Part shown: one piece after another, positions 48,155 to 64,000 of the stretch
Layout: each line of letters starts with the position of its first letter
Numbering within the stretch: the first letter of the stretch is position 1
DNA from: Hydrogenimonas urashimensis
Lineage (GTDB): Bacteria; Campylobacterota; Campylobacteria; Campylobacterales; Hydrogenimonadaceae
DNA length: 64,000 bases
Reading direction: 5' to 3'
Assembly (NCBI RefSeq): GCF_016593255.1
Contig: NZ_AP023212.1
Span: 2,210,001 to 2,274,000 of the forward strand
Notes under the pieces: generated by a model
What the model was told of the DNA's origin: nothing
Database searches by the model: none
Seen by the model: the letters and a program-made list of their open reading frames with translations, nothing else
Translations under genes and position numbers: made by a program

Positions 48155-48395
48155 AACTGATGTCACGCAGTATACACCACCATCCGCCCAGCGAGAATGT
48201 ATGCAATGCGAGGCGAAAAGGTTTGGGCGTAGCAGTGAATGCGTTATCGTTGGACCCCGAAAGGGCGGCACCATCGCCGCACAATCTCCGCGTTGCGACG
48301 GCATCGGCGTAGCTTTGGCTACGCCTCACCGTCGCGCCTTGCGCTTGCACGACGCTGATGCTGCGAAAGATGGTGTATATTGCGTAATATCAGTT
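48155..48395. repeat. 241-bp palindromic intergenic element
   Basis: This is the main content of the 405-base gene-free stretch 48035-48439. The outer 25-base ends, AACTGATGTCACGCAGTATA plus CACCA at 48155-48179 and its complement at 48371-48395, match at 22 of 25 positions. The interior has a hairpin GGCGTAGC-TTTG-GCTACGCC (48306-48325) nested in CGACGG (48297-48302) with CCGTCG (48329-48334). Open frames crossing it (48067-48312 plus, 48350-48141 minus) lack ribosome sites and protein-like sequence. It resembles a miniature inverted-repeat element or a large REP-like cruciform. Confidence 0.7.
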
Positions 48396-48439
48396 AAAAA
48401 AATGTTATACTTGGCGGCTCTTGAAGAAGGATCTTGCTT

Positions 48440-49444
48440 ATGAATGGAAGATTTTTTTCACTGATACTATTGTTACTCTCTTTCTCCCTCTTTGCCCAGG
48501 AATCGGAATATAAACTTGGCAGAGGTATCAGAGTGGGGAAGCTCCCTCTTTATGCTGGGGGGTACTTTTCGTTGATGTATGAAGATCGTTCCCATGCTGG
48601 CAGGACATTGAAACTCGACGACGTTTCCCTGATGCTTTACGGAGAAAGCGGTCATTTTGGATATTTGGCCGAGATGGAAGCCAATGATGTCTACCGGGAG
48701 GATATTGGCGGCCCGGAGGCGGATGAAACGGTTCATGACCATTTTCATATCGAACGTCTCTATATCGACTATACTTTCGATGAAACGTATACGTTAAGAG
48801 GCGGGAAGTTCAATTCTCCCATCGGTTTTTGGAATCTGACGCCGATCAACGTTCTTCGCGATACCACGTCCAACCCCGTGGTGACGGAAATTCTTTTTCC
48901 CCGGTTTACGACAGGGGTGGATCTGCAATACAACGATTTCGAACATGCAACGACGATGGATTTAATGCTGCAGGCGACGAAAGATATGGATACGCTTCTT
49001 AGCCGTGAAGTCTACAACAACGTCGATCTAAATAGACATTTCGCCTTGGGTCTGTCCGGCAACCGGGAAAACTGGAGTTACCATCTAAACGGCGGCTATT
49101 TCCGTCTCGTCGATGAAAAATCCTATTACTATCTCTGTGCATCGGCCCAATATCTCTACCGAAAATGGAAAGTGCAGGGGGAGGTCGGTTCCCGGTTTGA
49201 CAAGGAGAAGGCGGTTGTTCCCTATGTGGGGTATCTCCAGCTGCGATACCGCATCCAAGAGGGGCATGACGCGATCGTCAGGGTCGAAAGTTACGACAAT
49301 CGGCAAAAAAAGCAAAGAGACACTTTCGGTGTTTTCGCCTACACCTACAGGCCATGGTATCCCGTCGCCATCAAAGGAGAGTATCAGTGGCATGCCATCG
49401 GTAGAAATGACAGATTCCTACTCTCCTTTTCCATGCTCTTTTAG
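48440..49444 (+). CDS. outer-membrane beta-barrel (porin-like) protein
   Basis: 334 residues with a Sec signal (NGRFFSLILLLLSFSLFA), then alternating hydrophobic/polar strands rich in Tyr and a C-terminal Phe (LLSFSMLF). The region GGKFNSPIGFWNLTPINVL resembles the segment of OprP-like and copper/phosphate-type porins. ATG 48440 with AAGGA at 48427-48431 is preferred over the TTG upstream. It is followed by a periplasmic binding protein and sensor kinase, so it may supply the ligand they sense. No specificity can be read from sequence. Confidence 0.75.
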   Translation: MNGRFFSLILLLLSFSLFAQESEYKLGRGIRVGKLPLYAGGYFSLMYEDRSHAGRTLKLDDVSLMLYGESGHFGYLAEMEANDVYREDIGGPEADETVHDHFHIERLYIDYTFDETYTLRGGKFNSPIGFWNLTPINVLRDTTSNPVVTEILFPRFTTGVDLQYNDFEHATTMDLMLQATKDMDTLLSREVYNNVDLNRHFALGLSGNRENWSYHLNGGYFRLVDEKSYYYLCASAQYLYRKWKVQGEVGSRFDKEKAVVPYVGYLQLRYRIQEGHDAIVRVESYDNRQKKQRDTFGVFAYTYRPWYPVAIKGEYQWHAIGRNDRFLLSFSMLF

Positions 49445-49452
49445 GAATAGAC

Positions 49453-49866
49453 ATGGTAAGGCGGTTGGCTTTCATCCTTTTGCTTGGCCTCATACTAAGG
49501 GCTGAAGATCTGCTTGTCGTGACCAATCCCTCCAACGATATAGGCCCGCTCGACGCGGTGCAGCTGCGGCAAATTTACCTTGGGAAACGGCGTTACTGGA
49601 AAACGTTGAAACTCTTTCCGATCAATCTTCCGCCTGGCAATCCGCTGCGAAGAAAATTTGAAATCCATCTTTTGCATATGACACCTTCGGCTTTGGATGC
49701 CTACTGGATGAAAGAGCATTACCTCGGTCGCCGTCCGCCATATCGCGTGGAATCAATTGAAAGTGTCATACGTTTCGTGAAAAAACTCAAAGGTGCCATC
49801 GGCTATATTCCACAGCATCGCATGAGCCGGGATCTGAAAGTGATATATCGGATTGAAGATGAATGA
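49453..49866 (+). CDS. short PstS-like periplasmic substrate-binding domain protein
   Basis: 137 residues, signal peptide ending LILRAED. The body resembles one lobe of the PBP-like domain found in phosphate-binding PstS homologues: LLVVTNPSNDIGPLDAVQLR, then IYLGKRRYWKTL, and a terminal AIGYIPQHRM segment. Such short proteins often pair with porins and sensor proteins, which fits here. Likely role: ligand capture (possibly an oxyanion) for the kinase encoded next, whose start overlaps this stop by eight bases. Family placement is confident; ligand is unknown. Confidence 0.75.
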   Translation: MVRRLAFILLLGLILRAEDLLVVTNPSNDIGPLDAVQLRQIYLGKRRYWKTLKLFPINLPPGNPLRRKFEIHLLHMTPSALDAYWMKEHYLGRRPPYRVESIESVIRFVKKLKGAIGYIPQHRMSRDLKVIYRIEDE

Positions 49867-51937
49867 GTTACTTGCAAGCGTGGTGCCGTATTCATTGAAA
49901 AACAAACTGCGCATCGCATTATTTCTTATCGGAATCATCCCTTTTATCTTCATACTTCTTTATCTGCACAACCTTGGGCGTCAGAAAATTCTGGACGATA
50001 CCCTGGCCGTTCAACATGCCCAGATGCGGCTGGTGAAAAAGACGATCGAACAGCATCTCGTTTCGCTGGAAAAGGAGCTTCGGTTCCTTGCATCGTTGGA
50101 GATAATGAACGATATTGTCGTGGATGACGTGGATAAGCGGATTGCCGGATTGCTGAGTCAGAAAAAGCGTGATCTTGGCGACAAAGTCGATCTGTTCGCA
50201 TTGAATGAGCATATGACCACAGTGGCTTCGACCACCCCAAGAGCCCACCCTTTCCCTTATGCCAAGCCTATGCAAAAAGCTTTGCGCCGAAAAAAGAATC
50301 ACTTTTACGAGGGGAAATTTCTCATCTTCTTTACACCGGTCAAGACCTCTTTGCAAAAAGAAAAACCCTTGGGCTATCTCGTGCTCCGTTATGATTTGCA
50401 GGATCTGAAACGCTTTACATTGAAACAAAGAGGTCTTCAGACGATCTTCTATTTTCCCCAAAACGGTTTGCAAATCGCAGAGAATTCCCTTTCCCTGAAA
50501 TGGAAACCGAAAAGCTGTGGGAAAGATCGGATCACCGAAAAATATCTTGTGCTATGTGAGCATTTCGGCGGTCCCCTTGGAGCAGGTGTCATCGTCAATG
50601 TGGTGGACAAAGTGACCGCTCTATCTTTTCTCGATCATTTCATACGGTTTTTGTGGATACTCTTTTCCATCGGATTTGGGCTTATCGCCATCTTTTCCTG
50701 GTGGGTCGGGGAACGGATTTTAAAACCCGTGGAAAAGTTGACCGATGCAACCCGGCATATCGTCCAGACAAGAGACTACGGTACCAGGGTCGACGTCGAA
50801 TCCCGTGACGAGATAGCACAACTCGCGCGCCATTTCAATGTGATGGTTGCAGAGACACAGCGTACGCTGAGAATGTTGGAAGAAGAGAGCCGTCAGCGGC
50901 TTTTGCGCTTTGTTCAGTTGATCGCATTCTTCAACAAAATTATCCGGACCGAAAACGAACAGGCCTGTATCGAAACGGCTCTGGAAGAGCTTGGAAAACT
51001 GATGCCCACAAAACGCTTCTTTTTTACCTGGAAAGATCCTGAAAAAGAGGAAGCGACCATCAACCTGCCGCTGTATGTGAAAGATTTCGAAAAAGGTGGA
51101 AATGTTCTATATGGCGTGATCGTTCTGCGCGATCAAGCGGACGGAATCGATGTACACGAGATGGAATTTTACCGTTCCGTTGCCAAAATGATCATGCTGC
51201 AGCTCGATCAAATCCGGCTCATTAAAGGGATCAAAGCGGTCTCTTTGGCCAAATCGACCTTCATTTCACACATGTCCCACGAATTACGCACCCCTTTGCA
51301 TACCATTTTGAGTGCCACGCAGTATCTCATCGGTTACGAGGGACTCTCGGCGTCGCAGCAGGACAGGGTATCGACCATCGAAGCGGCTGCGGGGCATCTG
51401 CTGGGAATGATCAACGATATTCTGGATCTGGTACAGATCGAAGCGGGAAAGGTGCCTGTCAACAAAAAAGAGTATACCTGTGGCGAGATTGCAAAGGTGG
51501 TGGAAGAGGCGATCGAAATGCTCAGGGTGCTGGCAGAGGAAAAAGAACTGGCCTTGACATTCCAAAACCGTCTGCAAAAAGAGCAAAAGGTGGTAGCCGA
51601 TGTCGATCTTCTCAAACAGATTCTTATCAATCTGCTTTCCAATGCCATCAAATTCACCGAAAAGGGCAGGGTGGAAGTGGTACTGCGTCTTTGCGGCACG
51701 CATTGTTGCATCGAAATCTCGGATACGGGTGTTGGACTCTCGCAAGAGGAGATCGCGGCTCTTTTCGAAGAGTTCGGCCGAGTAGAAAAAGGGGTGGAAG
51801 GCAATCAAAAAGGCAGTGGGCTGGGACTGGCGATCAGCCGGAAGCTGGCCCGTCTTTTCGGAGGAGATATCGAAATTCATAGCGAAGGAGCGGGCAAGGG
51901 GGTGACGGCGGTGTTGTCGATACCGGTATCAAAGTAA
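49859..51937 (+). CDS. membrane sensor histidine kinase with HAMP and GAF-like regions
   Basis: About 692 residues. Transmembrane helix 1 (around 18-40, LRIALFLIGIIPFIFILLYL), a 210-residue periplasmic sensor with helical start and Cache-like content, helix 2 (around 260-282, FLWILFSIGFGLIAIFSWWV), HAMP (PVEKLTDATRHIV), a GAF-like middle, HisKA with phosphoacceptor His in SHMSHELRTPLHTIL near 475, and HATPase boxes NLLSNAIKF, DTGVGL and GSGLGLAI. Start ATG 49859 lies inside the preceding gene with a weak ribosome site, suggesting coupling. The convergent OmpR-type regulator downstream is its likely partner. Confidence 0.88.
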   Translation: MNELLASVVPYSLKNKLRIALFLIGIIPFIFILLYLHNLGRQKILDDTLAVQHAQMRLVKKTIEQHLVSLEKELRFLASLEIMNDIVVDDVDKRIAGLLSQKKRDLGDKVDLFALNEHMTTVASTTPRAHPFPYAKPMQKALRRKKNHFYEGKFLIFFTPVKTSLQKEKPLGYLVLRYDLQDLKRFTLKQRGLQTIFYFPQNGLQIAENSLSLKWKPKSCGKDRITEKYLVLCEHFGGPLGAGVIVNVVDKVTALSFLDHFIRFLWILFSIGFGLIAIFSWWVGERILKPVEKLTDATRHIVQTRDYGTRVDVESRDEIAQLARHFNVMVAETQRTLRMLEEESRQRLLRFVQLIAFFNKIIRTENEQACIETALEELGKLMPTKRFFFTWKDPEKEEATINLPLYVKDFEKGGNVLYGVIVLRDQADGIDVHEMEFYRSVAKMIMLQLDQIRLIKGIKAVSLAKSTFISHMSHELRTPLHTILSATQYLIGYEGLSASQQDRVSTIEAAAGHLLGMINDILDLVQIEAGKVPVNKKEYTCGEIAKVVEEAIEMLRVLAEEKELALTFQNRLQKEQKVVADVDLLKQILINLLSNAIKFTEKGRVEVVLRLCGTHCCIEISDTGVGLSQEEIAALFEEFGRVEKGVEGNQKGSGLGLAISRKLARLFGGDIEIHSEGAGKGVTAVLSIPVSK

Positions 51938-51942
51938 ATGTA

Positions 51943-52605
51943 TTACTCTTTGATGGTATAGCCGATGCCGCGGACCGTGACGATGAGGTTTTTAAGGCCG
52001 GTTTTTTTTCTGATATTTTTGATATGGACATCGAGTATATTGCTCTGCTTGAGGCTGGAGTATTCTCTACATAGATGCTCGTTGAGCTGATAGCGGGTCA
52101 GAACGATGTTTTTGTTTCGAAGCAGAAGTTCCAACAGATCGAATTCCGTAGGGCTAAGGGTAACGGTTTCGTTGTTGACTTTCACTTCTTTGCTCTTGGT
52201 ATCAAGACTTAGGGGTCCGCTTTCAAGAACCGTGCGCTTTTGTGGTGCTTCTCTTCGCAGTAACGCACGGATTCTGGCCAGAAGTTCGATGTTGGAGTAG
52301 GGTTTGCAAAGATAGTCGTCGCCGCCGGCATCGAGGACTGTCACACGGTCGTCCACTTCGCTTTTGGCCGAAAGCATGAGCACGGGTGTCGCGATTTCCA
52401 TATCGCGCAACTCTTTCAGCAAAGTCAAGCCACTCCCATCGGGCAGGTTCCAATCAAGTAGAATGAGATCATACCGTTTTTCATCACAGTAGCCCATCGC
52501 CTCTTTGTAATCGTAAGCGACGTCGCATCGGTATTTTTCCTGTTCCAGCAACGCTTTGAGTTGATTGGCGACGCTTTTTTCATCTTCTACGATCAGCAGG
52601 TGCAC
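51943..52605 (-). CDS. OmpR-family response regulator
   Basis: 220 residues. Receiver domain with LLIVEDE, phosphoacceptor Asp near 51 (LILLDWNLPDG), conserved Ser and Lys in LMLSAKS and LCKPYS, then a winged helix (LSPTEFDLLELLLRN, VRGIGYTIKE). It is convergent with the sensor kinase (five-base gap), so the two are likely a pair though transcribed separately. OmpR-type proteins bind 11-bp direct repeats; such repeats (TTCAT at 11-bp spacing) lie upstream of the two plus-strand operons that begin at 52804 and 59733. AAGGGG precedes the ATG. Confidence 0.9.
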   Translation of the reverse strand: MHLLIVEDEKSVANQLKALLEQEKYRCDVAYDYKEAMGYCDEKRYDLILLDWNLPDGSGLTLLKELRDMEIATPVLMLSAKSEVDDRVTVLDAGGDDYLCKPYSNIELLARIRALLRREAPQKRTVLESGPLSLDTKSKEVKVNNETVTLSPTEFDLLELLLRNKNIVLTRYQLNEHLCREYSSLKQSNILDVHIKNIRKKTGLKNLIVTVRGIGYTIKE

Positions 52606-52738
52606 ATTCCCCCCTTCATTGATTTTGGGTAGCTTAGTATAAAAGTTTTTCTCTTAAGGACATCTCTTTCAAGTCACAAAAGCGCCGGTTGAGGCTTAGG
52701 AGATGGGTTGGGATGAGTCTGGGGTATTGGAAACGCCG

Positions 52739-52770
52739 TTCATGAAAACTTCATGTTTCTCCTTTACACT
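52739..52770 (+). promoter_or_regulatory. predicted OmpR-type box and -10 of the P460 operon
   Basis: TTCATGAAAACTTCAT at 52739-52754: two TTCAT half-sites exactly 11 bp apart. The downstream sequence includes TACACT (52765-52770) as a possible -10 box. The first base of the box is 65 nt before the start codon at 52804. A copy differing at one base stands exactly 65 nt before the start at 59733. The layout resembles PmrA-type boxes (two six-base half-sites with five bases between) overlapping the -35 region. Confidence 0.6.
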
Positions 52771-52803
52771 TCGAACCATGAAATTCTTTTTCAAAGGTTC
52801 GTT

Positions 52804-53826
52804 ATGAAATACATCTTCAGCGTCCCCTTATCGACGGTTGCGTTTCTTCTTCTTTTCTCAGCGGAATTTGGCTACTACCTTCTGATTTTGCAAACCGGAA
52901 TCGTCCAGTATCACCATTCTATTTTGTCCGAAATTTGGACAATGCCTGTCGGTGGGATGGTTGGGTTGGTATGGTCCGTTAAACTCTATCCCAATAGGCA
53001 TTGGCTGATGCCTTCGCTGCTTTTTTTACAGCTGATTCTTTCACTCTATTATGCTTCCGCCAATGAACTTGCACTCTTTCTTTTGGGGTTGATAAGCGGT
53101 CTGACGGCGCCGATTCTCATTGCGATGGTGCCCAGGCTGTGGGTCGCCGTTGTCGCACTGGCATTCTCCTACATTTTTAGTACCTATGTATTCGATGTGC
53201 CCGCAATAGATAGAACTTTCATCGCATTGTTGCTCTCCGCAGTGGCTTTTGGCGCGTCGTTACTGAGCGACGTGCAGACAGAAGCAGGAAAGCATGGGAC
53301 GGTTTCGTTTCACGATCTGCGAAACATATTTCTCTGGCTGTTGCTCGATGCCACACTCTTTGAGACCCTATCCAGGGATGTCGTCATGCATCTGTGGGGA
53401 GATGAGGGTTTTGTTTTCACGATTATCGTCTTCCATCTCGTCGGCCTTGTTGTCGCTTACCATATGCGCTCCCATCGGCACAATAACGCTCTGCTTCTGG
53501 TATTTTTCGCCCTCACTTATGTGGCCTACGCATCTGGTAGTCGGTACAGTCTGTCCGTGATCTATCCATTTGTCATCTCCTACTACAATGTTGTTATTTT
53601 GGCAAAATTGATCCATCTTCCCTATCCCAAAATCGCCGTGGCTTCCTCGAGTCTGTGGGCCGCATCGGGTTTGGGGCTTTTGATTGCCCTTTCGCATACT
53701 TTTGTGATTGCATGGATCGTTTTGGCCGCCTTGTTTTTCAATTATGTAGCCGATATGGTCCGTAAAAAACCGATCTTTTGTCCGATCTTGAAACCTTTCA
53801 ATCTTAATACAGGAGGATCACTATGA
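52804..53826 (+). CDS. polytopic membrane protein of unknown function, first gene of the P460 operon
   Basis: 340 residues with about ten to eleven hydrophobic helices, compatible with an MFS-like or 7TM-type transporter but without a recognisable signature. Notable polar positions within or between helices include HHSILSEIW, RLWVAVV and HDLRNIF. It ends with a short hydrophilic tail. ATG 52804 is used; an in-frame ATG 51 bases upstream lies between the operator and promoter region and would be untranslated. It overlaps the cytochrome P460 gene by four bases, so the two are coupled. Role unknown. Confidence 0.7.
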   Translation: MKYIFSVPLSTVAFLLLFSAEFGYYLLILQTGIVQYHHSILSEIWTMPVGGMVGLVWSVKLYPNRHWLMPSLLFLQLILSLYYASANELALFLLGLISGLTAPILIAMVPRLWVAVVALAFSYIFSTYVFDVPAIDRTFIALLLSAVAFGASLLSDVQTEAGKHGTVSFHDLRNIFLWLLLDATLFETLSRDVVMHLWGDEGFVFTIIVFHLVGLVVAYHMRSHRHNNALLLVFFALTYVAYASGSRYSLSVIYPFVISYYNVVILAKLIHLPYPKIAVASSSLWAASGLGLLIALSHTFVIAWIVLAALFFNYVADMVRKKPIFCPILKPFNLNTGGSL

Positions 53827-54332
53827 AACAAACGACACGCCTACTGGCGGGTTCACTTTTACTTGGCATGACGCTTTTTGCTTCGGAAGCATCCCATACG
53901 CCGGCACCTTGCAACGGCATCGACTATCCCGTTGGATGGCGACATTGGAGTGTTATCGCCCTATCCCATAGGATCGACAACCACACCGAACGCGTGATTC
54001 TTGGCAACGATGTCGCCATCGAGGCTATACGCCACCATCAAACCAATCCATGGCCCGATGGTGCGATTCTTGCAAAAGTCGTTTGGAAAGAGCGCCGACT
54101 CAAACGGTGGCACGATGCGGTAGTACCGAGGCAATTCGTTCATGCGGAATTCATGTTCAAAAATGCGACGAAATATCGCAAAACCCATGGTTGGGGATGG
54201 GCCCGATGGGTATCTGAAAAGTTACAACCTTTCCGTGGGGGAGACCATGTCTGTATGAATTGTCACAAACCTGTCGCTTCACATGATTGGGTCTATACCG
54301 AACCGGCTCAATTCCCCAAGCGTGTTCGGTAA
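53823..54332 (+). CDS. cytochrome P460-family periplasmic heme protein
   Basis: 169 residues: signal peptide (to about 21), then the P460 fold hallmarks WRHWSVIALSHR, an ILGND motif, WPDGAILAKVVWKE with the lysine that may cross-link to heme, FVHAEFMFK, GWGWARW, and heme-binding CMNCHKPV near 140. P460 proteins oxidise hydroxylamine and bind NO; others of this domain family are cytochrome c' beta proteins handling NO. AGGAGG precedes the ATG. The neighbours (YceI, heme-copper-like protein) suggest periplasmic nitrogen-oxide or reactive-species chemistry, which is inference. Confidence 0.87.
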   Translation: MKQTTRLLAGSLLLGMTLFASEASHTPAPCNGIDYPVGWRHWSVIALSHRIDNHTERVILGNDVAIEAIRHHQTNPWPDGAILAKVVWKERRLKRWHDAVVPRQFVHAEFMFKNATKYRKTHGWGWARWVSEKLQPFRGGDHVCMNCHKPVASHDWVYTEPAQFPKRVR

Positions 54333-54342
54333 GGAGCGTTGC

Positions 54343-54873
54343 ATGTTACGAAATATCATTGTGATTCTGTTGGCCGTTTCTTCTCTTTTTGCGGCACATC
54401 TGTCGGTTTTGAATGGGGTCGTTCGGGCCCATACGGAGGTATTTGGTGACTCGACGATCGATCCGCAGACACGTGGTGTCGTTTCGCATCTGAGGATGGA
54501 TGGTGATGTCGAAACGATGAAAGGGCGCGTCGAGGTTTCAATGGCCGATCTAAAAAGCGACAATGCCAAAAGAGACGAACATATGATGCAAACGATCGAA
54601 GCGAATCGATTTCCCCATGCGACCTATAGGTTTGAAAAAGTGACCAAAAAGCGAGGGGATCATTATGTGGTCGAGGGGGTATTGACCTTCCACGGTGTTC
54701 AAAGGCCATTGCGAATCGACGCCCAGATCCAAAACGGTGCACACACCCTCGCTTTTTTGGGACATAGCGTTTTCAAGATGTCCGATTATGGTGTCAAGCC
54801 ACCTAAGCTTTTCTTTTTGACGGTGCGCGACCGCATCGATTTAACGATCGATGTGACGTTAAAAAAAGAGTAA
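54343..54873 (+). CDS. YceI-family periplasmic lipocalin-like protein
   Basis: 176 residues with a signal peptide (MLRNIIVILLAVSSLFAA). YceI-type beta-barrel features: KGRVEVSMADLKSDNAKRDE, HMMQTIEANRFPHATYRF, VVEGVLTFHGVQRPL and LGHSVFKMSDYG. These proteins bind long isoprenoid/quinone-like or lipid ligands in the periplasm; here a quinone-related role beside respiratory-type proteins is conceivable. AAGGAG at 54331-54336 starts in the preceding stop codon. ATG 54343 is chosen because the longer frame upstream lies within the P460 gene. Confidence 0.87.
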   Translation: MLRNIIVILLAVSSLFAAHLSVLNGVVRAHTEVFGDSTIDPQTRGVVSHLRMDGDVETMKGRVEVSMADLKSDNAKRDEHMMQTIEANRFPHATYRFEKVTKKRGDHYVVEGVLTFHGVQRPLRIDAQIQNGAHTLAFLGHSVFKMSDYGVKPPKLFFLTVRDRIDLTIDVTLKKE

Positions 54874-54885
54874 GGAAAAGGTGGC

Positions 54886-55956
54886 ATGTTCAAATCCTAT
54901 CTGCGTTACAAAACCAAAACGTCGCTGATTTTGCTCTCGGCGGTCTCTGCCATCGCTTCGATTTTCATGATTACGGCACTTGGCAACGGCATCATCGACA
55001 TGTATGCCTCCATGCTTAGAACGGATGGCGATCTTATTGTCATGCAAAAAGGGGTTGCCGATACCTTTTTTTCCGATGTCAACCGCTCTTTGATCGCACC
55101 GATTTCAAAAATCGATCGTATCCGATCGGTGCAGGGGGTCATCGTAGGCGCCGGAGCGATCGATTCGGTGCCGATTGCGGGCATCTATGGGGTGACGCAA
55201 AACCGTTTTAAAAATTACGCGCTTAAAAGTGGCCGATACCCAAAAGAAAAAGAGGCCATCATCGGGGAGAGTATCGCCAATCTTTTGGACAACCCTCGTC
55301 AAATTCATTTGATGGGTCAACCTTTCAAGGTTTCGGGCATTTATCATAGCGATATAGGGTTTGAAAACGGCGGTGTTGTCATCAACATCGCCGATGGGGA
55401 GAAGCTCTTTAAAAAACGTGCCTCTTTTTTGCTCGTTTCTCTCAAAGATCTTGGCGAGGGGGTCGACGGAATCATCGCCAAAATCGAAAAACTCGACAAA
55501 GATATCGAAGTGAAGTCGACGGAGGCTTTCATCGACAATTACAACCAATTCAAAATCATACGTATCTCCAGCGGTGTGATCGCTTCCATCTCCTTTTTCA
55601 TGGGATTTTTGGCGATTGTCAGTCTTATGAGCATGATGATCAACGATCGGCGTTATGAATTTGGTATCAAGCGAGCGATGGGTATTTCGCAATGGAGGAT
55701 CGTTTGGGAGATCGTCGTTGAGGTGGTGGTGCTGATTTTGATTGCCTTTACGGTGGCGTATGGGATCAGCCTTCTGCTTTTGGATTGGTTGCAGCATATC
55801 CCGAAATTTCAGGGGTATTTAAGTGGAAAGATCGACCTGCCGCTGTTTGTTAAACTGCTGATCGGCTCTCTTGCGATGGCTTTAACTGGAGCGCTCATTC
55901 CCGCTTTTCTTGCGGCGCGGATCGATCCGATCATTCTCATTCACAGGGGGCAGTAG
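54886..55956 (+). CDS. MacB/FtsX-type ABC transporter permease
   Basis: 356 residues with four membrane helices: one at the N-terminus (ILLSAVSAIASIFMITALG), a periplasmic domain of about 200 residues (MacB-PCD type, with YALKSGRYPKEKEAIIGE), then three helices (SISFFMGFLAIVSLMSMMI, VVVLILIAFTVAYGISLLL, LLIGSLAMALTGALIPAFLA) and the typical NDRRYEFGIKRAMG loop. MacB-type transporters move lipoproteins or couple mechanical force across the periplasm. Its ATPase is encoded next, with a one-base overlap. Substrate unknown. Confidence 0.88.
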   Translation: MFKSYLRYKTKTSLILLSAVSAIASIFMITALGNGIIDMYASMLRTDGDLIVMQKGVADTFFSDVNRSLIAPISKIDRIRSVQGVIVGAGAIDSVPIAGIYGVTQNRFKNYALKSGRYPKEKEAIIGESIANLLDNPRQIHLMGQPFKVSGIYHSDIGFENGGVVINIADGEKLFKKRASFLLVSLKDLGEGVDGIIAKIEKLDKDIEVKSTEAFIDNYNQFKIIRISSGVIASISFFMGFLAIVSLMSMMINDRRYEFGIKRAMGISQWRIVWEIVVEVVVLILIAFTVAYGISLLLLDWLQHIPKFQGYLSGKIDLPLFVKLLIGSLAMALTGALIPAFLAARIDPIILIHRGQ

Positions 55957-56567
55957 TGTTGCGCGTTGAACATGTGTCACATCGGTATGGAAACGAGTCG
56001 GTGCTGTATAACATATCCTTTGACTTCGAACCGGGCGGTTTTTATGTGGTCAGTGGTGAAAGCGGCAGTGGAAAATCGACGCTTCTATCCATAGTTTCTA
56101 CCCTTTTGAAGCCTTCCGAAGGCGTAATCTACTACAACGGTGTGGCGTTGGAAAAGATTCGCAATATCGATCGTTTCAGAAATCGCAATATCGGTTTCGT
56201 TTTTCAGTTTCACTATCTTATCGGCCACTTGAGCGTCTATGAAAACGTCGCGATAGCCACGAAAAAAGGGCGAAAGGAGATCATGTCGCTTTTGGATCGT
56301 CTTGGCATCGTCGATTTGGCATCGAAATATCCCGACCAAATCTCCGGTGGACAGCGCCAGCGCGCTGCGATCGCAAGGGCGTTGATCAACGACCCGCGCT
56401 ACCTTTTTGCCGATGAACCGACTGGCAATCTCGATTCGAAAAATTCCCAAAAAGTTTTCGAACTGCTTCGTCAAACCGATGCGACCCGAATCGTTGTGAC
56501 CCACGATAAGAGTGTTATTGAACCTACGGATTGTCTTATTGAGCTTAAGGATGGTAGGCTATGTTGA
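55956..56567 (+). CDS. ABC transporter ATPase (LolD/MacB type)
   Basis: A 203-residue nucleotide-binding subunit for the preceding permease. Walker A GESGSGKST near 36-44, Q-loop VFQFHYLIG, signature ISGGQRQRAAIARAL near 129-143, Walker B YLFADEPTGNLD near 149-160, and the His switch VVTHDKS. Length and the DEPTGNLD motif place it with LolD/MacB. GTG start at 55956 shares its first base with the permease stop. It overlaps the heme-copper-like gene by seven bases. Confidence 0.93.
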   Translation: MLRVEHVSHRYGNESVLYNISFDFEPGGFYVVSGESGSGKSTLLSIVSTLLKPSEGVIYYNGVALEKIRNIDRFRNRNIGFVFQFHYLIGHLSVYENVAIATKKGRKEIMSLLDRLGIVDLASKYPDQISGGQRQRAAIARALINDPRYLFADEPTGNLDSKNSQKVFELLRQTDATRIVVTHDKSVIEPTDCLIELKDGRLC

Positions 56568-58123
56568 AAGAACGACTCGTGCCTTATGTCAAATTTTCTT
56601 ATCTTTTTCTTGTGATGGCCGCTTTTTTTGGCCTTTTGTACGCCCTTCAGCTACTGGGATTCGGGATCGATCTGATTCGTCCGGATTTGACGCGATCGTT
56701 GCATATTTCACTGATGCTTTATGGTTTCATTCCTCTTATGATGAGCCTGTTGCCTTTTGCCCTGTTCGATAAAGATGGGGTGATCAACGAGAAGGCGATC
56801 GCTTCTTTGGAGCGTTTTTTGTGGCTATGGACCATTTTTCTCGTATTTATGATTTTCTCGATTTTGGCCGGTGCCACACGTGGACTGCCTTTTTACGATT
56901 TTGCCTATGAGCTCAATTTTCTTTTGGCCATGGCAGGGATTTTCTATATTACAGCGATTTTTAAAAGCATCGCCCATTACGAAAAGAAGCCGCTTTGGGT
57001 TCAAGTTTCCTTGGTTGCGGTTATCGTCAGTCCTATAGCGCTATTGGTGTTGATGCATCCAAAATATGGACAAGTAGAAAAAATGCTGATGGGACCCCAT
57101 GGGGACAATACTTTGGGCATGAGTTTCGCACTGGTTGTCATCTACTATCTCGCGGTGAAACTCGCTTCGCCCAATCCCGCGTTTAAAACCCGATGGCATT
57201 TGCTGTGGATCGTCCCTTTGGCTGGATATATAGGAAGTGTCCTCTATCGATCTTTTATCGGTTCACTCTCCTATGATGCCGAATGGTTCTTGCAATACCT
57301 GACACTGTTTTATATTCCCCTTTTTGTCGTTTGGTGGAAAGATGCGAAACTTTCGATAAAAAAACATTTAACGCTTTTTATCTCCATGGCGGCTTTTCTC
57401 TTTGCGGATGCGGAGGGTAACATCTTGTTCATTCCTCACCTGCGCGCTCTCTTTCATCGAAACGATCTGGTGGTGGGGCACGCCCATGTGGCGGTTGGAA
57501 TCGGATTGCTGTTTCTTGCGCTTTCCATCATCGAACCCTTCGTCAAAATTTCCATAAAGCGAGCCTTGTATTTGACGATGACGCTATGTATGATGGCACT
57601 CGTTCTTTCCATCAGCGGTTTTGCTCAGGCCGGATTTTTACCCATGCATATCGAGACGATGTGGGCGTTGCGCGCCCTTTTTGGGCTCTTTTTTATCGTG
57701 GGGTTGCTCTATCGATTACCGGTGCATTTTCTTCGACGGATGCGAAGCGTGGATTGGTACAACATGGCCGGATTTCTATCCGATGGAATCAGTGGATTCG
57801 TTTTGGTTCTTTTTGGCGGTTGGTTGTATTCTTTTATCGCACAAGATTATGCCCCCGGGTATCAGCAGGTCGTCTTTGGTTTTGTCATGGGGGTAGGGTG
57901 TATGCATCTTCTGGGGCTTCTGTTTTTTCGATACGCCCATGCCATGGCACAGGCGACGGTGATTGTAAGAACTTTGACGGCTGCCGGTTTTTTTGCGCTA
58001 TATAAAGTGGGCGTTTTGGGATGGATCGCGCTTGTGATCGCCTTGGTTGATTTTTTCTTCGTGTTGGTCTATCTGTTTAAAGTGAAAGATCAAGCAAGAC
58101 TTTGCAGGGTGGAGGCCGTATGA
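56561..58123 (+). CDS. heme-copper oxidase subunit I-like membrane protein lacking the CuB ligands
   Basis: 520 residues, about 12 membrane helices. The pattern follows CcoN/NorB: a helix-II-like heme ligand in RSLHISLMLYGF near 45-56, and a helix-X-like pair in LVVGHAHVAVGIGLLF near 305-320 that would ligate both hemes. Where cbb3 oxidase has GHNAVGFFLT (first CuB His plus Tyr helix) this has GDNTLGMSFA, i.e. His to Asp, and the HH pair of helix VII is missing. It could be a heme-only quinol-linked or NO-reacting protein rather than an oxidase. Starts inside the ABC gene. No partner subunit II/CcoO or NorC is present. Confidence 0.65.
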   Translation: MLKERLVPYVKFSYLFLVMAAFFGLLYALQLLGFGIDLIRPDLTRSLHISLMLYGFIPLMMSLLPFALFDKDGVINEKAIASLERFLWLWTIFLVFMIFSILAGATRGLPFYDFAYELNFLLAMAGIFYITAIFKSIAHYEKKPLWVQVSLVAVIVSPIALLVLMHPKYGQVEKMLMGPHGDNTLGMSFALVVIYYLAVKLASPNPAFKTRWHLLWIVPLAGYIGSVLYRSFIGSLSYDAEWFLQYLTLFYIPLFVVWWKDAKLSIKKHLTLFISMAAFLFADAEGNILFIPHLRALFHRNDLVVGHAHVAVGIGLLFLALSIIEPFVKISIKRALYLTMTLCMMALVLSISGFAQAGFLPMHIETMWALRALFGLFFIVGLLYRLPVHFLRRMRSVDWYNMAGFLSDGISGFVLVLFGGWLYSFIAQDYAPGYQQVVFGFVMGVGCMHLLGLLFFRYAHAMAQATVIVRTLTAAGFFALYKVGVLGWIALVIALVDFFFVLVYLFKVKDQARLCRVEAV

Positions 58124-58599
58124 AAAGGTTGCTGCTTCTTTTATGGGTGGTTGGGGTTGGATTGTTCGCCCAGATTCGTGTGGGTGATACGTTTCCCGAT
58201 ATGACGCTGCCGGATCAATTCGGGAAAAAACACCCCGTAAGCTCAGAAGATAGAATGGTTCTGATCGCTTTTGAAAAAGATCTTTTTCTTGCCATGAGTC
58301 AAAAGTTCAAGCATGAAAAAAAGGGATTTTTAAAAAAACATGCCATCAAAGTGATCGCCGATATCAGCGGTATACCTGTTTTCATCGCCAGGATGTTCGC
58401 CATACCGAAAATGCGCACCTATCCATTCTCTATTCTACTTATTCGGGACGATTCGGGGAAGCGATTTGAGCGAAGAAAAGGAAAAGTGACGCTTTATATT
58501 TTGCAAAACAAAAAAGTGTGCGATGTTAGATTTGTCTCACCTGCAAATCTTGACACCATCATTACACATGACGGGCAAAAAAACAGAGCCGGCATTTGA
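58120..58599 (+). CDS. thioredoxin-fold periplasmic protein without CxxC
   Basis: 159 residues, signal peptide (RLLLLLWVVGVGLFA), then a peroxiredoxin/thioredoxin-like opening (VGDTFPDMTLPDQFGKKHPV, MVLIAFEKD). The redox CxxC expected after the first strand is absent; the only cysteine is near 142 (KKVCDVRF). FALIK-type basic stretches follow. A chaperone or ligand-binding role within the operon is more plausible than oxidoreductase activity. GGAGG before ATG 58120, which overlaps the preceding stop by four bases. Similar proteins with FAS/AhpC-like folds are annotated near respiratory genes. Confidence 0.6.
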   Translation: MKRLLLLLWVVGVGLFAQIRVGDTFPDMTLPDQFGKKHPVSSEDRMVLIAFEKDLFLAMSQKFKHEKKGFLKKHAIKVIADISGIPVFIARMFAIPKMRTYPFSILLIRDDSGKRFERRKGKVTLYILQNKKVCDVRFVSPANLDTIITHDGQKNRAGI

Positions 58600-59508
58600 A
58601 TGATACGGTTTCAAAACGGAAGATTTGTTGGAAAATACGACACTTCCGACTATGGAGGAGTCTTCCAGATTCTAAAATGGAAGCTTTTTTACAGACGCAA
58701 AAACGTAGAGGATGGCAGTACTTTAAAACCGGTCGATATGTCCGAAAAATTGGCCAGTAAGGAAGATTTTCTTTGCTGGATTTCCCACGCTTCCTTTCTT
58801 GTGCAGCTCAACCACAAGCGCATTTTGATCGACCCCGTTTTTGGCAATATCCCTTTTTACCGACGCGCGATCCCCGCTGCTTATGCGCCACACATGCTTG
58901 GCAAGATCGACTATCTTCTTATCTCCCATACCCACTACGATCACTTCGATGCCCCTTCGATCGCGGAGATTTCGAAAACGTCACCGGTGGCGATCGTGCC
59001 GCTACGTATGGACAAACCATTGAAGCGAATCGTTCCTAAACTTGAGTGTATTCGGCTTGGGTGGTATGAGTGCCATGAACAGGATGGAATAAAAATCACA
59101 CTCGTTCCCGCCAGACACTGGGGAAGGCGCGGCCTGTTTGATAAAAATCGTGTCCTTTGGGGTGGTTACATCATTCAAAGCGCTGATATAACCATCTATT
59201 TTGCGGGAGATACGGCTGTGGGTGAGCATTTTCAAGAGATCGGCAAGCGCTTTTCCATCGATTGGGCACTTTTGCCTATCGGTGCGTATGAGCCGGAATT
59301 TGTGATGAAACATCACCATCTCAATCCCGAAGAAGCCTTCGGCGCCTACCGGCAGCTTGGAGCGAAAAAGATGATCCCTATGCATTACGGCACTTTCCGG
59401 CTCAGTGACGAACCTCTGGGTGAGCCGTTGAAACGGATCGAAAAGATCGCCGCGACACATCCCGGAATGCTGGAGATTCTCAAGCCGGGTGAAGTAATGA
59501 GATTGTGA
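58600..59508 (+). CDS. metallo-beta-lactamase-fold hydrolase (NAPE-PLD/UlaG-like)
   Basis: 302 residues, cytoplasmic (no signal). Metal motifs: ISHTHYDHFD near 106-115 (HxHxDH with H shifted), the following His near HWGRRG, FAGDTAVG near 203-210 and MHYGTF near 262-267. The HWG and GAYEPE segments match NAPE-PLD-like phospholipid-processing enzymes and UlaG lactonases. Its ATG directly abuts the preceding stop, so it ends the operon. Substrate unknown; phospholipid or lactone hydrolysis is inferred from family only. Confidence 0.8.
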   Translation: MIRFQNGRFVGKYDTSDYGGVFQILKWKLFYRRKNVEDGSTLKPVDMSEKLASKEDFLCWISHASFLVQLNHKRILIDPVFGNIPFYRRAIPAAYAPHMLGKIDYLLISHTHYDHFDAPSIAEISKTSPVAIVPLRMDKPLKRIVPKLECIRLGWYECHEQDGIKITLVPARHWGRRGLFDKNRVLWGGYIIQSADITIYFAGDTAVGEHFQEIGKRFSIDWALLPIGAYEPEFVMKHHHLNPEEAFGAYRQLGAKKMIPMHYGTFRLSDEPLGEPLKRIEKIAATHPGMLEILKPGEVMRL

Positions 59509-59606
59509 AATGTTTGAATTGTAACCATTTTTTCGGTGCGTTGGCAGTTGCGTGTGCATGAAAGCCCTATGCGGTCCATGTGACGTAGAAGATGGCAGAA
59601 ACTGTG

Positions 59607-59647
59607 CGATGCCTGCGTCTTGTTACGTGGTGCACCATCGTTTTTTT
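59607..59647 (+). terminator. possible intrinsic terminator after the P460 operon
   Basis: CGATG (59607-59611) with CATCG (59636-59640), plus an inner CGT/ACG pairing, followed by seven T (59641-59647). The stem is short and imperfect, so it is a moderate candidate. The 224-base gap 59509-59732 otherwise holds only the operator described next. Confidence 0.35.
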
Positions 59648-59667
59648 CCGTCACTTCCCCTCAGCCC

Positions 59668-59699
59668 TTCATGAAAAATTCATATTCATCCTCTAATTT
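59668..59699 (+). promoter_or_regulatory. predicted OmpR-type box and -10 of the lipid-sugar operon
   Basis: TTCATGAAAAATTCAT at 59668-59683, with TTCAT half-sites 11 bp apart and an extra TTCAT at 59685. It differs from the box at 52739 at one of 16 bases, and again lies exactly 65 nt before the start codon (59733). The downstream TAATTT (59694-59699) stands where TACACT is in the other copy. Shared control of both operons by one OmpR-family protein is inferred. Confidence 0.6.
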
Positions 59700-59732
59700 A
59701 GAGGCACAAATACAAAAATTTAGGAACAGCGT

Positions 59733-60455
59733 ATGAAAAAATTCGAGTTGACCATTATCGTACCTGTATACAACGAAATTGAGAACCTCCCGCGGTTGGG
59801 TGCGGTTTTGCGGAACTATCTTGACAGAGCATCCAGAAAAAGCTGTGTACTGTTTGTAGATGACGGTTCCACCGATGGAAGCGGCAGTGCGATCCATAAA
59901 CTTTGTAGAGAAGAGGAACGTTTCTTCTGTATCTCTTTTCGTCAAAACCGTGGGCTCAGTACGGCGATCAAAGCGGGAATCGACTATTGTGATACCCCGA
60001 TATTGGGCTATATCGATGCAGATCTGCAGACCACGCCGGAAGATTTTGAATTGTTGCTACCCTTTATCGAAGAGTATGATGCCGTGGTCGGTTATCGCAC
60101 CAAACGAAAAGATAGTTGGAGCAAAAAGATACAGTCCAAAATCGCCAATGCCATCCGGCGATGTATGATCGATGACGGGATTATCGACACCGGATGCCCG
60201 CTCAAACTTTTTCGCACCGATATATGCAAAAAAATTCCCTTTTTCGATGGCATGCACCGCTTCTGGGCGGCACTTGTACTGCTTGAAAACGGCCGTGTGA
60301 AGCAGGTGCCCGTCCGGCATTTCGAACGTATCGCCGGAAAATCGAAATTCAACTTTTTCAACCGATCCATCCGACCTTTGCAGGATATGTTGGCGTTTCG
60401 CTGGATGAAAAACCGATATATTCACTATGTCTTCGTTTCGGAGATACTGCCTTGA
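59733..60455 (+). CDS. family 2 glycosyltransferase (polyprenyl-phosphate sugar synthase type)
   Basis: 240 residues with the GT-A fold: TIIVPVYNEIENLPRL, VLFVDDGSTDGSG near 40-52, QNRGLSTAIKAGIDY and GYIDADLQTTPEDF near 91-104 with the DxD-like site. It has no C-terminal membrane helices, unlike ArnC or GtrB. Predicted to make a polyprenyl-phosphate-linked sugar for the ArnT-like transferase two genes downstream. Its stop overlaps the next TTG start. First gene of the operon behind the predicted box. Confidence 0.88.
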   Translation: MKKFELTIIVPVYNEIENLPRLGAVLRNYLDRASRKSCVLFVDDGSTDGSGSAIHKLCREEERFFCISFRQNRGLSTAIKAGIDYCDTPILGYIDADLQTTPEDFELLLPFIEEYDAVVGYRTKRKDSWSKKIQSKIANAIRRCMIDDGIIDTGCPLKLFRTDICKKIPFFDGMHRFWAALVLLENGRVKQVPVRHFERIAGKSKFNFFNRSIRPLQDMLAFRWMKNRYIHYVFVSEILP

Positions 60456-61105
60456 GCTTCTCCTGGTGGATTTACGGCATAGGGTTTTTGGCCCAGGCAC
60501 TCTTTTCTGCCCGGCTGCTGGTGCAGTGGATTCACTCCGAACGGATGCGACGCGTGATGACACCGGAGCTTTTCTGGGAGTTGAGTCTGCTGGCCTCTTT
60601 TTTGATGTTCGTCTACGGTTGGCTCCATGACGATTTCGCCATCGTGCTGGGACAGAGTGTCAGTTATTTCATCTACATCCGCAATATGCAGCTGCAAGGG
60701 ACGTGGTCCCGGCTCTCCAGGACACTTCGGGGCTTTTTGCTTCTTTTTCCGTTGCTGGTGTTGGGATATGGGTTCAATAACGGCGAAATCGATAGCGCCC
60801 GTTTTTTTCACAATCCGGCCATTCCGAACTGGCTGCTTGTGTGGGGCAGTGCGGGACAGCTGCTCTTTACATTCCGTTTCGTCTACCAGTGGTTGCTTTC
60901 GGAACGGGCACGCCATTCGCACCTTCCCGTGGGATTCTGGCTCATCAGCCTTGCAGGCTCTTCGATGATACTTCTGTATGCCATATGGCGCCGTGATCCG
61001 GTGCTTTTTATTGGGCAGATTTTCGGTTTTGTCGTCTATGGCCGTAATCTTTGGCTCTATTTTCTCGCAAAAGGGAGGCGCATTCCTGATGAAAACCGGA
61101 TTTGA
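60452..61105 (+). CDS. lipid A biosynthesis N-terminal (LABN) domain protein, two tandem LABN units
   Basis: 217 residues, about six membrane helices. The LABN pattern occurs twice: GFLAQALFSARLLVQWIHSE with GQSVSYFIYIRNMQ (about 8-78) and GQLLFTFRFVYQWLLSE with GQIFGFVVYGRNLW (about 132-205). So the protein is an internal duplication of a three-helix unit. LABN proteins accompany glycosyltransferases in lipid A and polyprenyl-sugar modification. The start is TTG 60452, overlapping the GT2 stop. It overlaps the ArnT-like gene by 17 bases. Confidence 0.88.
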   Translation: MSFSWWIYGIGFLAQALFSARLLVQWIHSERMRRVMTPELFWELSLLASFLMFVYGWLHDDFAIVLGQSVSYFIYIRNMQLQGTWSRLSRTLRGFLLLFPLLVLGYGFNNGEIDSARFFHNPAIPNWLLVWGSAGQLLFTFRFVYQWLLSERARHSHLPVGFWLISLAGSSMILLYAIWRRDPVLFIGQIFGFVVYGRNLWLYFLAKGRRIPDENRI

Positions 61106-62717
61106 TCGAAGCATGGCGCTTTTTTTGTTTTTTGCGGCGGTGGTACTTCTTATGGGTGCGGGAAGTTACGGGGTGATCGAAACGAGTGACGCCCGTTACG
61201 CCGAAATTGCACGGGAGATGCTGCATGGCGAAGACTGGCTCCATCCTTCTTTACTTGGGATACACCATTATCACAAGCCGCCGTTGACCTATCAGATCAC
61301 GGCGCTTGGATATGAGATTTTCGGTATCAATCCATTCGGCGCACGTTTTTTCCTCCAGATTTCGGTCTTGCTGCAACTGTGGGTTGTCTATGCGATGGCA
61401 AGGGCGTTGGGGTTGAGAGAGCAGCCCGCCCGTAGGGCGGCCATCATCTATTTTACTTTTCCCCTCGTGCTGGCCTCTTCGCGCGACCTGACGACCGATT
61501 CCTTTTTGACCACATTCGCACTGGCGACCATGTATGCCTGGATTCGGTATCGACGGCAGGGTCGTGTAGGGTGGCTCTATCTTTTCGCTCTTTTTCTGGG
61601 GTTGGGTTTCTTGACCAAAGGACCGGTCGTTCTGATCGCACCCGGGCTTTTGGCTCTTTTGTGGCGGCCGGAAATGCCACGGCATAAGGTTTCAAAACGC
61701 CATCGATTCGCAGCTTTCGCCCTGTTCGTATTGCTGGCGGGGTCCTGGTTCGTCTATTTGGCATGGGAAAATCCCGCGTTTTGGAACTATTTCATCGAAC
61801 GCCAAACCGTCCAGCGTTTTGGTAGCAACGTTTTTCATCGGCATGAACCCTTCTGGTATTACTGGGTTTTCGCTCCGTTGGTCGGCCTGCCCTGGCTGGC
61901 GGCACTGCCGTGGTTGTTGGTGAAGGCAGGAGAAAGAGGCAGGAAAGAGAAGCTTCTTAGTACACTCTTGTTGGCCGGTGGCATCGGCATCCTCTTTTTC
62001 TCACTCTCTTCTTCCAAACGGATCTTCTATATTCTTCCTCTTTTCGTTTTTTTCGCCCTGGCGACCGCCATCTTGATCGACCGGTTGGAGAACCGGGAGA
62101 GCCGTCGCCTGGCGAAAGGAATGACATTTTATACCGTGGGAGCTGCCATGCTCTTTTTCCTCATGCCGTGGTTGCCTTTGAAAAATGTGCATGTTCCTCC
62201 CATCGTCGACCTTTATGCGTTGGGGGCGCTGGCGGCGACAGGATGGATGTGGCGTTATGTCGATTCCAGCAAAAGCCGGGCGGTGCTGACGGCATCCATC
62301 GCGTCTGTGGTATTGCTTTTGTCGGCTACGGCGACGCTCTCGCTCTCTTCCGCCTCTTTCAAAATCGCCGACCCTGTGGCGAAATGGATTCGTCTCCATC
62401 ACCTGCAGAATCGGACACTACTGGTTTACGACAGGCGTCTTCCTTCGCTGGCTTTCGCCCTGGACAAACCGATTGTCTCCCTCTATGACGGCAGTCGCGA
62501 TCTTGACCGGGAGACACAGTTCGAACGGAGTGATCGATGGAAAAAAACGCTTTACAATCTTAAAGATCCCGAAGATGAGAAGCGACTGAAACGTGCACTC
62601 TCTGGCACTTCCTATTTATTGGTTCTTTATAGAAAAAGATTGCCCAAAAATCGGCAGTGGCTCATGGAAAATCTTGGGCATCAACAAAAAATCGGTCGGT
62701 GGAAGCTCTATTTTTGA
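61089..62717 (+). CDS. ArnT-like GT-C glycosyltransferase
   Basis: 542 residues with about 11-12 membrane helices and a C-terminal periplasmic domain. The N-terminal loop ETSDARYAEIAREML (about 28-42) carries the acidic residue typical of ArnT/PMT catalysis, followed by HHYHKPPLTYQ. ArnT moves aminoarabinose from undecaprenyl phosphate to lipid A. Here a GT2 and LABN protein precede it, so transfer of some polyprenyl-linked sugar to lipid A or another envelope target is likely; aminoarabinose genes are absent. ATG 61089 is used; an in-frame upstream start lies within the LABN gene. Confidence 0.88.
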   Translation: MKTGFDRSMALFLFFAAVVLLMGAGSYGVIETSDARYAEIAREMLHGEDWLHPSLLGIHHYHKPPLTYQITALGYEIFGINPFGARFFLQISVLLQLWVVYAMARALGLREQPARRAAIIYFTFPLVLASSRDLTTDSFLTTFALATMYAWIRYRRQGRVGWLYLFALFLGLGFLTKGPVVLIAPGLLALLWRPEMPRHKVSKRHRFAAFALFVLLAGSWFVYLAWENPAFWNYFIERQTVQRFGSNVFHRHEPFWYYWVFAPLVGLPWLAALPWLLVKAGERGRKEKLLSTLLLAGGIGILFFSLSSSKRIFYILPLFVFFALATAILIDRLENRESRRLAKGMTFYTVGAAMLFFLMPWLPLKNVHVPPIVDLYALGALAATGWMWRYVDSSKSRAVLTASIASVVLLLSATATLSLSSASFKIADPVAKWIRLHHLQNRTLLVYDRRLPSLAFALDKPIVSLYDGSRDLDRETQFERSDRWKKTLYNLKDPEDEKRLKRALSGTSYLLVLYRKRLPKNRQWLMENLGHQQKIGRWKLYF

Positions 62718-62739
62718 GCCTTTAGATTTTCCATCGAAT

Positions 62740-64000
62740 CTATGTTTTGGAGTGATCTGAATGGGATGACGAATCAGTCAACTTCTTGACGATGAGATCC
62801 CTGTTTTCGCAGAATTTCCCGTTTTTTTCGATCAAAAAGAGGTCGTTGACCCGGTCTTTCCGTGTCGTGATGACCGCCGTGGCGATATCGATGCCCAGTT
62901 CGTCGAAGTAGTGGGCCACGTAAGCCATCAGTCCGCGCTGATTGGCGGTTTTGATCTGCATCAAGGCGTAAGTTTTCGTATGCTCGCAGTCGATGGTGAT
63001 CTCCCTGGGTTTGATGAGTGGTTTCTTGAGTTTGATTTTTTTGTTCATGTCGAACGAATCGTGAATAATCTGCTCGACCATCGGAATCTCTTCGTCGGCG
63101 ATGGTGTCGTTGAACTCCAGAACGAAATATTTGACCCCGTCAAAGAGTTTGAAAATCTCCATCGTGACCAGTTCCAAGTGGCTCAGTTTTCCCAACAGAT
63201 AGCCGAGATTGATAGGGATTTTCCGGTAAATTTCGATTTTCAGCGTCTCACCTGCCGTAATCTGCATATCGTAGTCAAGAACGGTGCGCGCCCTTTTGGC
63301 GATATCGAGAATCTCTTTCGTTGAATGTTTGATGAAAAAGAGGTTGGATTCGATTGAAAGAATCTTCTTCTGCAGGGACCTGGGAAGCTCCTTGAACTCA
63401 AGAATGCGTCTGAGTGCGTGCTCCCTTCGCAAACGTTTGGCCGTTTCGTCGATAATGGCGGGTTTTTCAAGCATTTCGACTGCGGCAAAATAGAGGGTCT
63501 TGAGCATCCGCTCGGTAAAGGCGTTGTAGACATTTTCCCCGACGGCGTTAACATCGCAATAGGTGAGAATGAAGAGCATATCCAGCAGTTTGCGATTGCT
63601 CAGAGGTGCGACGAATCGGGAGACGGTCGACTCGTCGTAGATATCTTCGTTATGGATTGTATAGGTCATGCGCGTATGGTGTCGGATAAGCAAAATGCCC
63701 TCTTTGATGAGCTCTTCGCCAAGGCCGAGTTTCTTCGCATAGATTTTAAAAAGGTCCGCTCCGACATCTCGATGGTCCCTGATGCGTCCCTTGCCGGCAT
63801 CGTGGAGCAGAGCGACGAGTTTCAGCATCGCCCGGGAGTCTCTGTCGAGTCCTTCGAACATCGGCTTGAGAAGTTCGTGCCGGAGATTGTCCAGTGCGAG
63901 CAGTGTATGGTAGGAGTGCAGGTCCACAGGGTAGTGGTGGTATCCGTCGAACTGCGGCAGATACATGATGCGTTTCATCGGCGGGATGGTCTGGGGAAGT
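62740..64000 (-). CDS. glnD: [protein-PII] uridylyltransferase GlnD, C-terminal part
   Basis: The frame stays open to the window edge, so the N-terminal nucleotidyltransferase domain is outside. The visible 420 residues hold the HD domain, with DGYHHYPVDLHSYHTL and ALLHDAGKGR (metal-binding HD), and ACT-type ligand domains at the end (YALMQIKTANQRGLMAYVAH). GlnD senses glutamine and adds or removes UMP on PII. It is convergent with the ArnT-like gene, 22 bases apart. The tail is Ser/His-rich. Confidence 0.9.
   Translation of the reverse strand, partial: LPQTIPPMKRIMYLPQFDGYHHYPVDLHSYHTLLALDNLRHELLKPMFEGLDRDSRAMLKLVALLHDAGKGRIRDHRDVGADLFKIYAKKLGLGEELIKEGILLIRHHTRMTYTIHNEDIYDESTVSRFVAPLSNRKLLDMLFILTYCDVNAVGENVYNAFTERMLKTLYFAAVEMLEKPAIIDETAKRLRREHALRRILEFKELPRSLQKKILSIESNLFFIKHSTKEILDIAKRARTVLDYDMQITAGETLKIEIYRKIPINLGYLLGKLSHLELVTMEIFKLFDGVKYFVLEFNDTIADEEIPMVEQIIHDSFDMNKKIKLKKPLIKPREITIDCEHTKTYALMQIKTANQRGLMAYVAHYFDELGIDIATAVITTRKDRVNDLFLIEKNGKFCENRDLIVKKLTDSSSHSDHSKT

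Follow-up and report, generated by a model that had tools for sequence, protein, structure and literature searches.

Two stretches of DNA with nearly the same sequence stand in front of two different operons of Hydrogenimonas urashimensis, and the question is whether they form one operator, read by the two-component regulator encoded beside the first. The window, a stretch of 64,000 nucleotides (contig NZ_AP023212.1, positions 2,210,001 to 2,274,000), holds box 1, TTCATGAAAACTTCAT (52739–52754, plus strand), in the intergenic region from which the regulator gene and operon 1 diverge, and box 2, TTCATGAAAAATTCAT (59668–59683, plus strand), upstream of a lipid-sugar operon, operon 2. Both have the form TTCAT-N6-TTCAT and are identical at 15 of 16 bases, the half-sites of each are 11 bp apart, and the motif TTnnTCCTnTA is common to the DNA 3′ of both; these features, first described with their coordinates in an initial annotation, were all confirmed in the sequence. 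A predicted −10 element lies exactly 10 nt 3′ of each box (TACACT, 52765–52770, and TAATTT, 59694–59699, both on the plus strand). From the comparisons below, it was concluded that TTCAT-N6-TTCAT is very probably the operator of the adjacent OmpR/PhoB-type regulator, which would activate both operons jointly.

In the genome (2,297,889 bp, one contig), the box together with its trailing motif matched perfectly at two positions, both of them the window sites; the next-best match had three mismatches, and the reversed control gave no match in the whole genome. The alignment-derived pattern TTCAT-N6-TTCAT-N10-TANNNT likewise matched exactly twice, at the same two sites. Thus, the many random matches that the initial annotation had named as a possible refutation were not found. 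A box-like site inside the P460 gene of operon 1 (54139, TTCATGCGGAATTCAT) was set aside as being in coding sequence and without a −10. A further site with the same core, TTCATGAAATCTTCAT (G000:C1:1393218, L003; G000 is the genome of the window), is located where two surface-polysaccharide-type genes meet and is without a −10 at N10.

Across the order Campylobacterales, the site was defined using regulator orthologues in relatives and a named genome collection, the flanking DNA of each gene being read. It consists of TTCAT-N6-TTCAT-N10-TANNNT, that is, two half-sites 11 bp apart in place of a −35 element and a fixed gap to the −10; in nearly all aligned sites the −10-like TANNNT stands exactly 10 nt 3′ of the box, as in the window. 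The exact box was sought within 300 bp of 43 regulator genes whose identity is 42% or more and was found at 24, compared with at most three for each other spacer from 2 to 12 and at most six for permuted half-sites, the highest count being for ATCTT, which reads this repeat out of register. In about nine loci the exact box has the position seen in the window, upstream of the regulator gene and divergent from it; in eight others it is just 3′ of the regulator stop codon and points away. The clade consensus, TCTTCAT-N-AAA-TCTTCAT, amounts to two units of 7 bases each that recur with a period of 11 bases.

The promoters of operon 1 gave a second set of sites. Its haem-copper-oxidase-like protein is present in 67 of the 399 genomes of the order, and 66 operon copies were analyzed. 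In 47 of them, the full promoter was found no more than 250 bp upstream of the first gene that was recognised; the window promoter, which was outside this scripted count only because its additional P460 gene interrupts the chain of genes, is the 48th. The half-site spacer was exactly 6 in 51 of the 66 copies (at most five for other spacers), and the distance to TANNNT was N10 in 47 (at most three for other spacings). When one mismatch was allowed, the promoter was present in 53 copies, while the reversed pattern was present in none of the 66. Conservation of the boxes upstream of orthologous operons, which the initial annotation had proposed as a check, was therefore observed. On this sequence comparison, a conserved operator, a rigid spacing to the predicted −10, a link to the regulator gene, and a place before orthologous operons can be regarded as established.

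The same annotation had stressed an identical 65-nt geometry. The distance from box start to ATG is indeed 65 nt at both sites (ATGs at 52804 and 59733), but the leader is variable among relatives, with a median of 62 nt, a range of mostly 54–79 nt, and a length of exactly 65 nt in 8 of 78 cases. As 65 nt is near the typical length, the coincidence carries little weight; judged from the alignments, the rigid features are N6 and N10, not the leader. The aligned counterpart of box 1 in genome G008 (L035:12458) is TTCACACAATCTTCAT.

With the predicted −10 placed at −12 to −7, the box would cover about −38 to −23. A transcription start leaving the box outside the promoter had also been named as a refuting outcome; given the predicted −10, the box instead falls on the −35 region. 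Neither box 1 nor box 2 coincides with a called consensus sigma-70 promoter, which fits an activator-dependent promoter. An Rfam scan of 48000–64000 found no known RNA. We infer that the regulator binds the box, that this binding activates transcription, and that the neighbouring kinase is its partner. In the proposed mechanism, the kinase would phosphorylate the regulator, a regulator dimer would bind head-to-tail on the two half-sites occupying the −35 region, and the bound regulator would recruit sigma-70 RNA polymerase to the −10, 10 nt downstream, whereby both window operons would be switched on together. Activation seems the best reading because the box lies near −35 positions of the HP1043 and PceP type and because consensus sigma-70 promoters were not called; repression would be compatible with the same sequences.

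The proposed reader of the boxes (51943–52605, minus strand) belongs to the OmpR/PhoB family, having a receiver with the phospho-acceptor Asp and a C-terminal winged helix (Pfam Response_reg, 7e-30; Trans_reg_C, 1e-18). The receiver Asp and Lys, D51 and K101, are invariant in the orthologue alignment. Its gene is divergent from box 1 and convergent with that of the likely partner histidine kinase (49859–51937, plus strand), with 5 bp between the stop codons (51937–51943). According to Pfam and a structure model, the kinase has a periplasmic double-Cache-like sensor followed by HAMP, HisKA, and HATPase domains. The periplasmic model (pLDDT 82) matched the sensor domains of Mlp24, DctB, and KinD in the PDB with E-values down to about 1e-6, and because of this double-Cache-like model a small periplasmic ligand would be the likely signal. 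A small exported protein (PBP), weakly PstS-like (49453–49866, plus strand), accompanies the kinase in nearly all complete loci, and a porin-like outer-membrane protein with a weak Porin_O_P match (48434–49444, plus strand) belongs to the same conserved module. The porin-PBP-kinase module is convergent with or adjoins the regulator in most clade-I loci, a stable neighbourhood of the kind looked for in a cognate pair. The convergent order of kinase and regulator is unusual for a two-component pair, yet it is kept in many relatives. In one Sulfurimonas genome (L113), the box stands in front of a single series of genes, for the regulator, porin, PBP, kinase, MacB pair, and oxidase-like protein.

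Whether operon 2 belongs to the same regulon was judged from its copies in other genomes. The operon (59733–62717, plus strand) encodes, according to Pfam, a GT2 glycosyltransferase (59733–60455), a LAB_N protein (60452–61105), and an ArnT-like glycosyltransferase (61092–62717). The LAB_N protein is present in 10 of the 399 genomes, and nine operons have readable upstream DNA. Among these nine, the exact promoter is present in three (the window, G021, and G105, the last two from two other families), and G081 has a degenerate site with two mismatches at the same position. In G008, operon 2 starts less than 100 bp 3′ of a boxed multihaem gene and could be reached by read-through. Accordingly, the claim of a box at the lipid-sugar operon holds exactly in three copies, in degenerate form in one, and indirectly in one, but not in the other four. 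The link between box and operon 2, as read from these sequences, turns up repeatedly in distant families without being universal. In G021 both operons have the box, which provides independent support for a joint regulon.

Several observations weigh against this joint reading. The copies of operon 2 without a box are those of G012, G319, G276, and G301; no related regulator was found above the threshold in G012 and G319, and one is encoded in G276 and G301. Most copies of operon 1 in family f16 are also without the box, a pattern that suggests loss or change of the regulator. Moreover, operon 1 and its box also adjoin a second clade of regulators, and box and regulator are thus not one to one. 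Finally, the genomes counted above are not independent samples.

The absence of the box from four of the nine operon 2 copies would be explained if operon 1 were the only true target, with box 2 being a chance match or a relic and the lipid-sugar operon being regulated otherwise. However, box 2 is a perfect match with a correctly placed −10, exact boxes precede the same operon in two other families, and the lipid-sugar operon of G008 lies directly 3′ of a boxed gene. This explanation was considered unlikely.

About equally unlikely is a Pho-type switch, in which a PhoB-like regulator and PstS-like and phosphate-porin-like proteins would drive lipid remodelling under phosphate scarcity. In NCBIfam the regulator matches PhoB best (191 bits), proteins encoded nearby have weak PstS and Porin_O_P matches, and a PHO box is made of two direct repeats of 11 nt, in each of which 7 bases are conserved (PMC4415409). 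The repeat described here, TCTTCAT-N4-TCTTCAT, has the same geometry, but its sequence differs and its targets include no phosphate genes. The PhoB, PstS, and Porin_O_P matches are all under the curated cut-offs (296 bits for PhoB), and PhoB membership was therefore rejected. With two sites in the genome, the phosphate uptake genes are outside the set, and the conserved targets are exporters and cytochromes instead.

The initial annotation had also compared the boxes with the PmrA boxes that control ArnT in enterics. A direct repeat does precede an ArnT-like gene, and the shape of that analogy remains. However, the PmrA half-sites are YTTAAK/TTTAAG (PMC10927774), while those in the window are TTCAT; the regulator scored 179 bits, where the PmrA cut-off is 330, and the ArnT-like protein scored 177 bits against an NCBIfam ArnT cut-off of 567. 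The PmrA reading was accordingly dropped.

The second clade raises the question of which regulator reads the boxes. In a tree of 82 regulators, the deep branches of which are uncertain, the clade of the window, with its porin-PBP-kinase module, was split from a second, starred clade. Members of the latter are 37–42% identical, have a different kinase, and are encoded at the 3′ end of operon 1, mainly in family f8; in several genomes their own gene also has the box in front of it. From these sequences, a change of regulator by the operon with retention of the operator is suggested. Alternatively, a different OmpR-family paralogue might read the boxes in H. urashimensis, the neighbouring regulator being linked by inheritance only. 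The second-clade regulators that adjoin the same boxed operon in other families speak for this, as does the presence of at least one other OmpR-type regulator (36% identity) in the genome. On the other hand, in the clade of the window the box adjoins the regulator gene on one side or the other in many genera, and no second regulator exceeded 36% identity among the matches from this genome. The paralogue was regarded as unlikely, slightly more so than the Pho-type switch or a true site at operon 1 only. As for a chance likeness of two short A/T-rich strings, the 16-base box alone had five window matches with up to three mismatches against 2.7 expected, but spacing statistics, half-site permutations, and conservation refute this idea almost completely.

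Operation of both window operons by the adjacent regulator therefore remains the preferred reading, and the OmpR/PhoB-type direct repeat proposed in the initial annotation, tied to the adjacent regulator and common to two operons, is supported by the comparative data. A broader proposal is more tentative and would be somewhat more likely wrong than right: the operator code would be fixed across Campylobacterales while its two-component reader was exchanged, with the MacB/oxidase-like/YceI operon keeping its box next to either of two regulator-kinase pairs and with MtrC-like cytochromes, P460, and lipid-sugar transferases being recruited around it, variously by genome, into one envelope/redox-surface programme.

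The composition of operon 1 was then considered across its copies. In the window, all genes being on the plus strand, it begins with a multi-pass membrane protein of no known family (52804–53826), which is kept in 65 operon copies, followed by cytochrome P460 (53823–54332; Pfam 1e-30), a conserved YceI-domain periplasmic protein (54343–54873), the conserved core of a MacB-like ABC permease (54886–55956) and ATPase (55956–56567), the haem-copper-oxidase-like membrane protein (56561–58123), an exported protein of no known family (58117–58599), and a metallo-beta-lactamase-fold protein (58600–59508). The conserved set comprises the MacB-like permease, ATPase, oxidase-like protein, membrane protein, and YceI protein, and often the 58117 protein. 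P460 was found in the window copy and was not detected in the other 65 copies. Since it occurs in 1 of 66, the name P460 operon is, by gene content, a misnomer, and the idea that operon 1 centres on P460/heme chemistry was not borne out.

Regulator, box, and operon 1 adjoin one another in G355, G337, G301, G167, and Sulfurovaceae BB41, the regulator being divergent in the first four; in BB41, the gene after the regulator-side box is the membrane protein of the window. They are also close together in G008 and in G206, which has two boxes between regulator and operon. Further exact promoter-pattern sites near operon 1 are L266:10253 (G301) and L262:1411 (G206). The boxless f16 operons are led by the 58117 gene (L269–L271, L280, L305, L311, L312, L315, and L316), and the box is kept in L273 and L297 of the same family.

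The binding site reportedly recognised by DccR of Campylobacter jejuni (Wosten 2010) is wTTCAC-N6-TTCACw over the −35, which is taken as a lead and not a test. The half-sites described here are TTCAT instead of TTCAC, and TTCAC-N6-TTCAC was found at neither window site; single TTCAC half-sites were present in relatives at L035:12458 and L112. The DccRS regulon includes six genes for periplasmic or membrane proteins and dccR itself (PMC7118207), and the system has been linked to the MacABC exporter Cj0606-0608 (PMC11365321). The resemblance between the two systems lies in an OmpR-type regulator from the same phylum, a small periplasmic/membrane regulon, and the MacABC link. The targets here extend beyond those of DccRS to the oxidase-like protein, the lipid-sugar genes, and, in relatives, MtrC-like cytochromes. 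The present system is neither a PmrA nor a PhoB system, and DccRS is its closest parallel.

Two other systems were compared. The OmpR-type PceSP of Sulfurospirillum, which responds to tetrachloroethene, uses CTATA repeats with 6-nt gaps that overlap the −35 at activated promoters, as shown by gel shift (PMC7755780), but it differs in half-site, in outer spacing (CTATW-N17-CTATW), and in regulon. HP1043 of Helicobacter pylori, an OmpR/PhoB-family activator, binds two half-sites, separated by about one turn, at −42 to −26 (PMC8345958), close to the approximate −38 to −23 of the box, but has TTTAAG half-sites, a degenerate receiver, and a modelled head-to-head binding. The type of mechanism is ordinary; a description of the regulon was not found in the literature searched, and it appears to be undescribed there. 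The boxes thus offer an order-wide, sharply defined operator for an unstudied two-component system, the target list of which is readable from genomes. In environmental Campylobacterota, they tie a conserved, functionally uncharacterised MacB-like/oxidase-like/YceI operon to genes for surface sugars and to multihaem cytochromes of the outer membrane. As DccRS is used by C. jejuni in host colonisation, work on either system could inform the other.

In relatives, the commonest gene after the regulator-side box encodes a lipoprotein carrying nine CXXCH motifs for haem and, where scanned, Pfam MtrC/MtrF-type domains. Such genes were found right behind the box at L035:6996–9254, L036:7919–10147, L047:7280–9541, and L095:7722–9953, and also at L101:10729–12507, L105:3761–5512, and L112:7686–9926. 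It is possible that they are outer-membrane electron-transfer proteins placed under this system in many Campylobacterota. When the gene was sought in the genome of the window, only partial N-terminal matches of 37–39% were obtained, with no site of up to two mismatches beside them; thus, the multihaem lipoprotein is not among the targets of this genome.

The oxidase-like protein has only a weak COX1 match, and H48, H180, H299, H307, H309, and H449 are conserved. The HAH motif and other invariant histidines mark a widespread family without a curated name, and from the sequence it seems to have no visible counterpart of the His-His pair at the copper site. Its model (pLDDT 62) had a cbb3 oxidase as the best fold match (E 0.016), a low-confidence hint. 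Upstream of the MacB operon, triple half-sites in 11-bp phase (TTCAT-N6-TTCAT-N6-TTCAT) occur in many f8 genomes and in L052 (f20), examples being L048:3599–3641, L052:14004–14046, L272, L275, and L276, among others.

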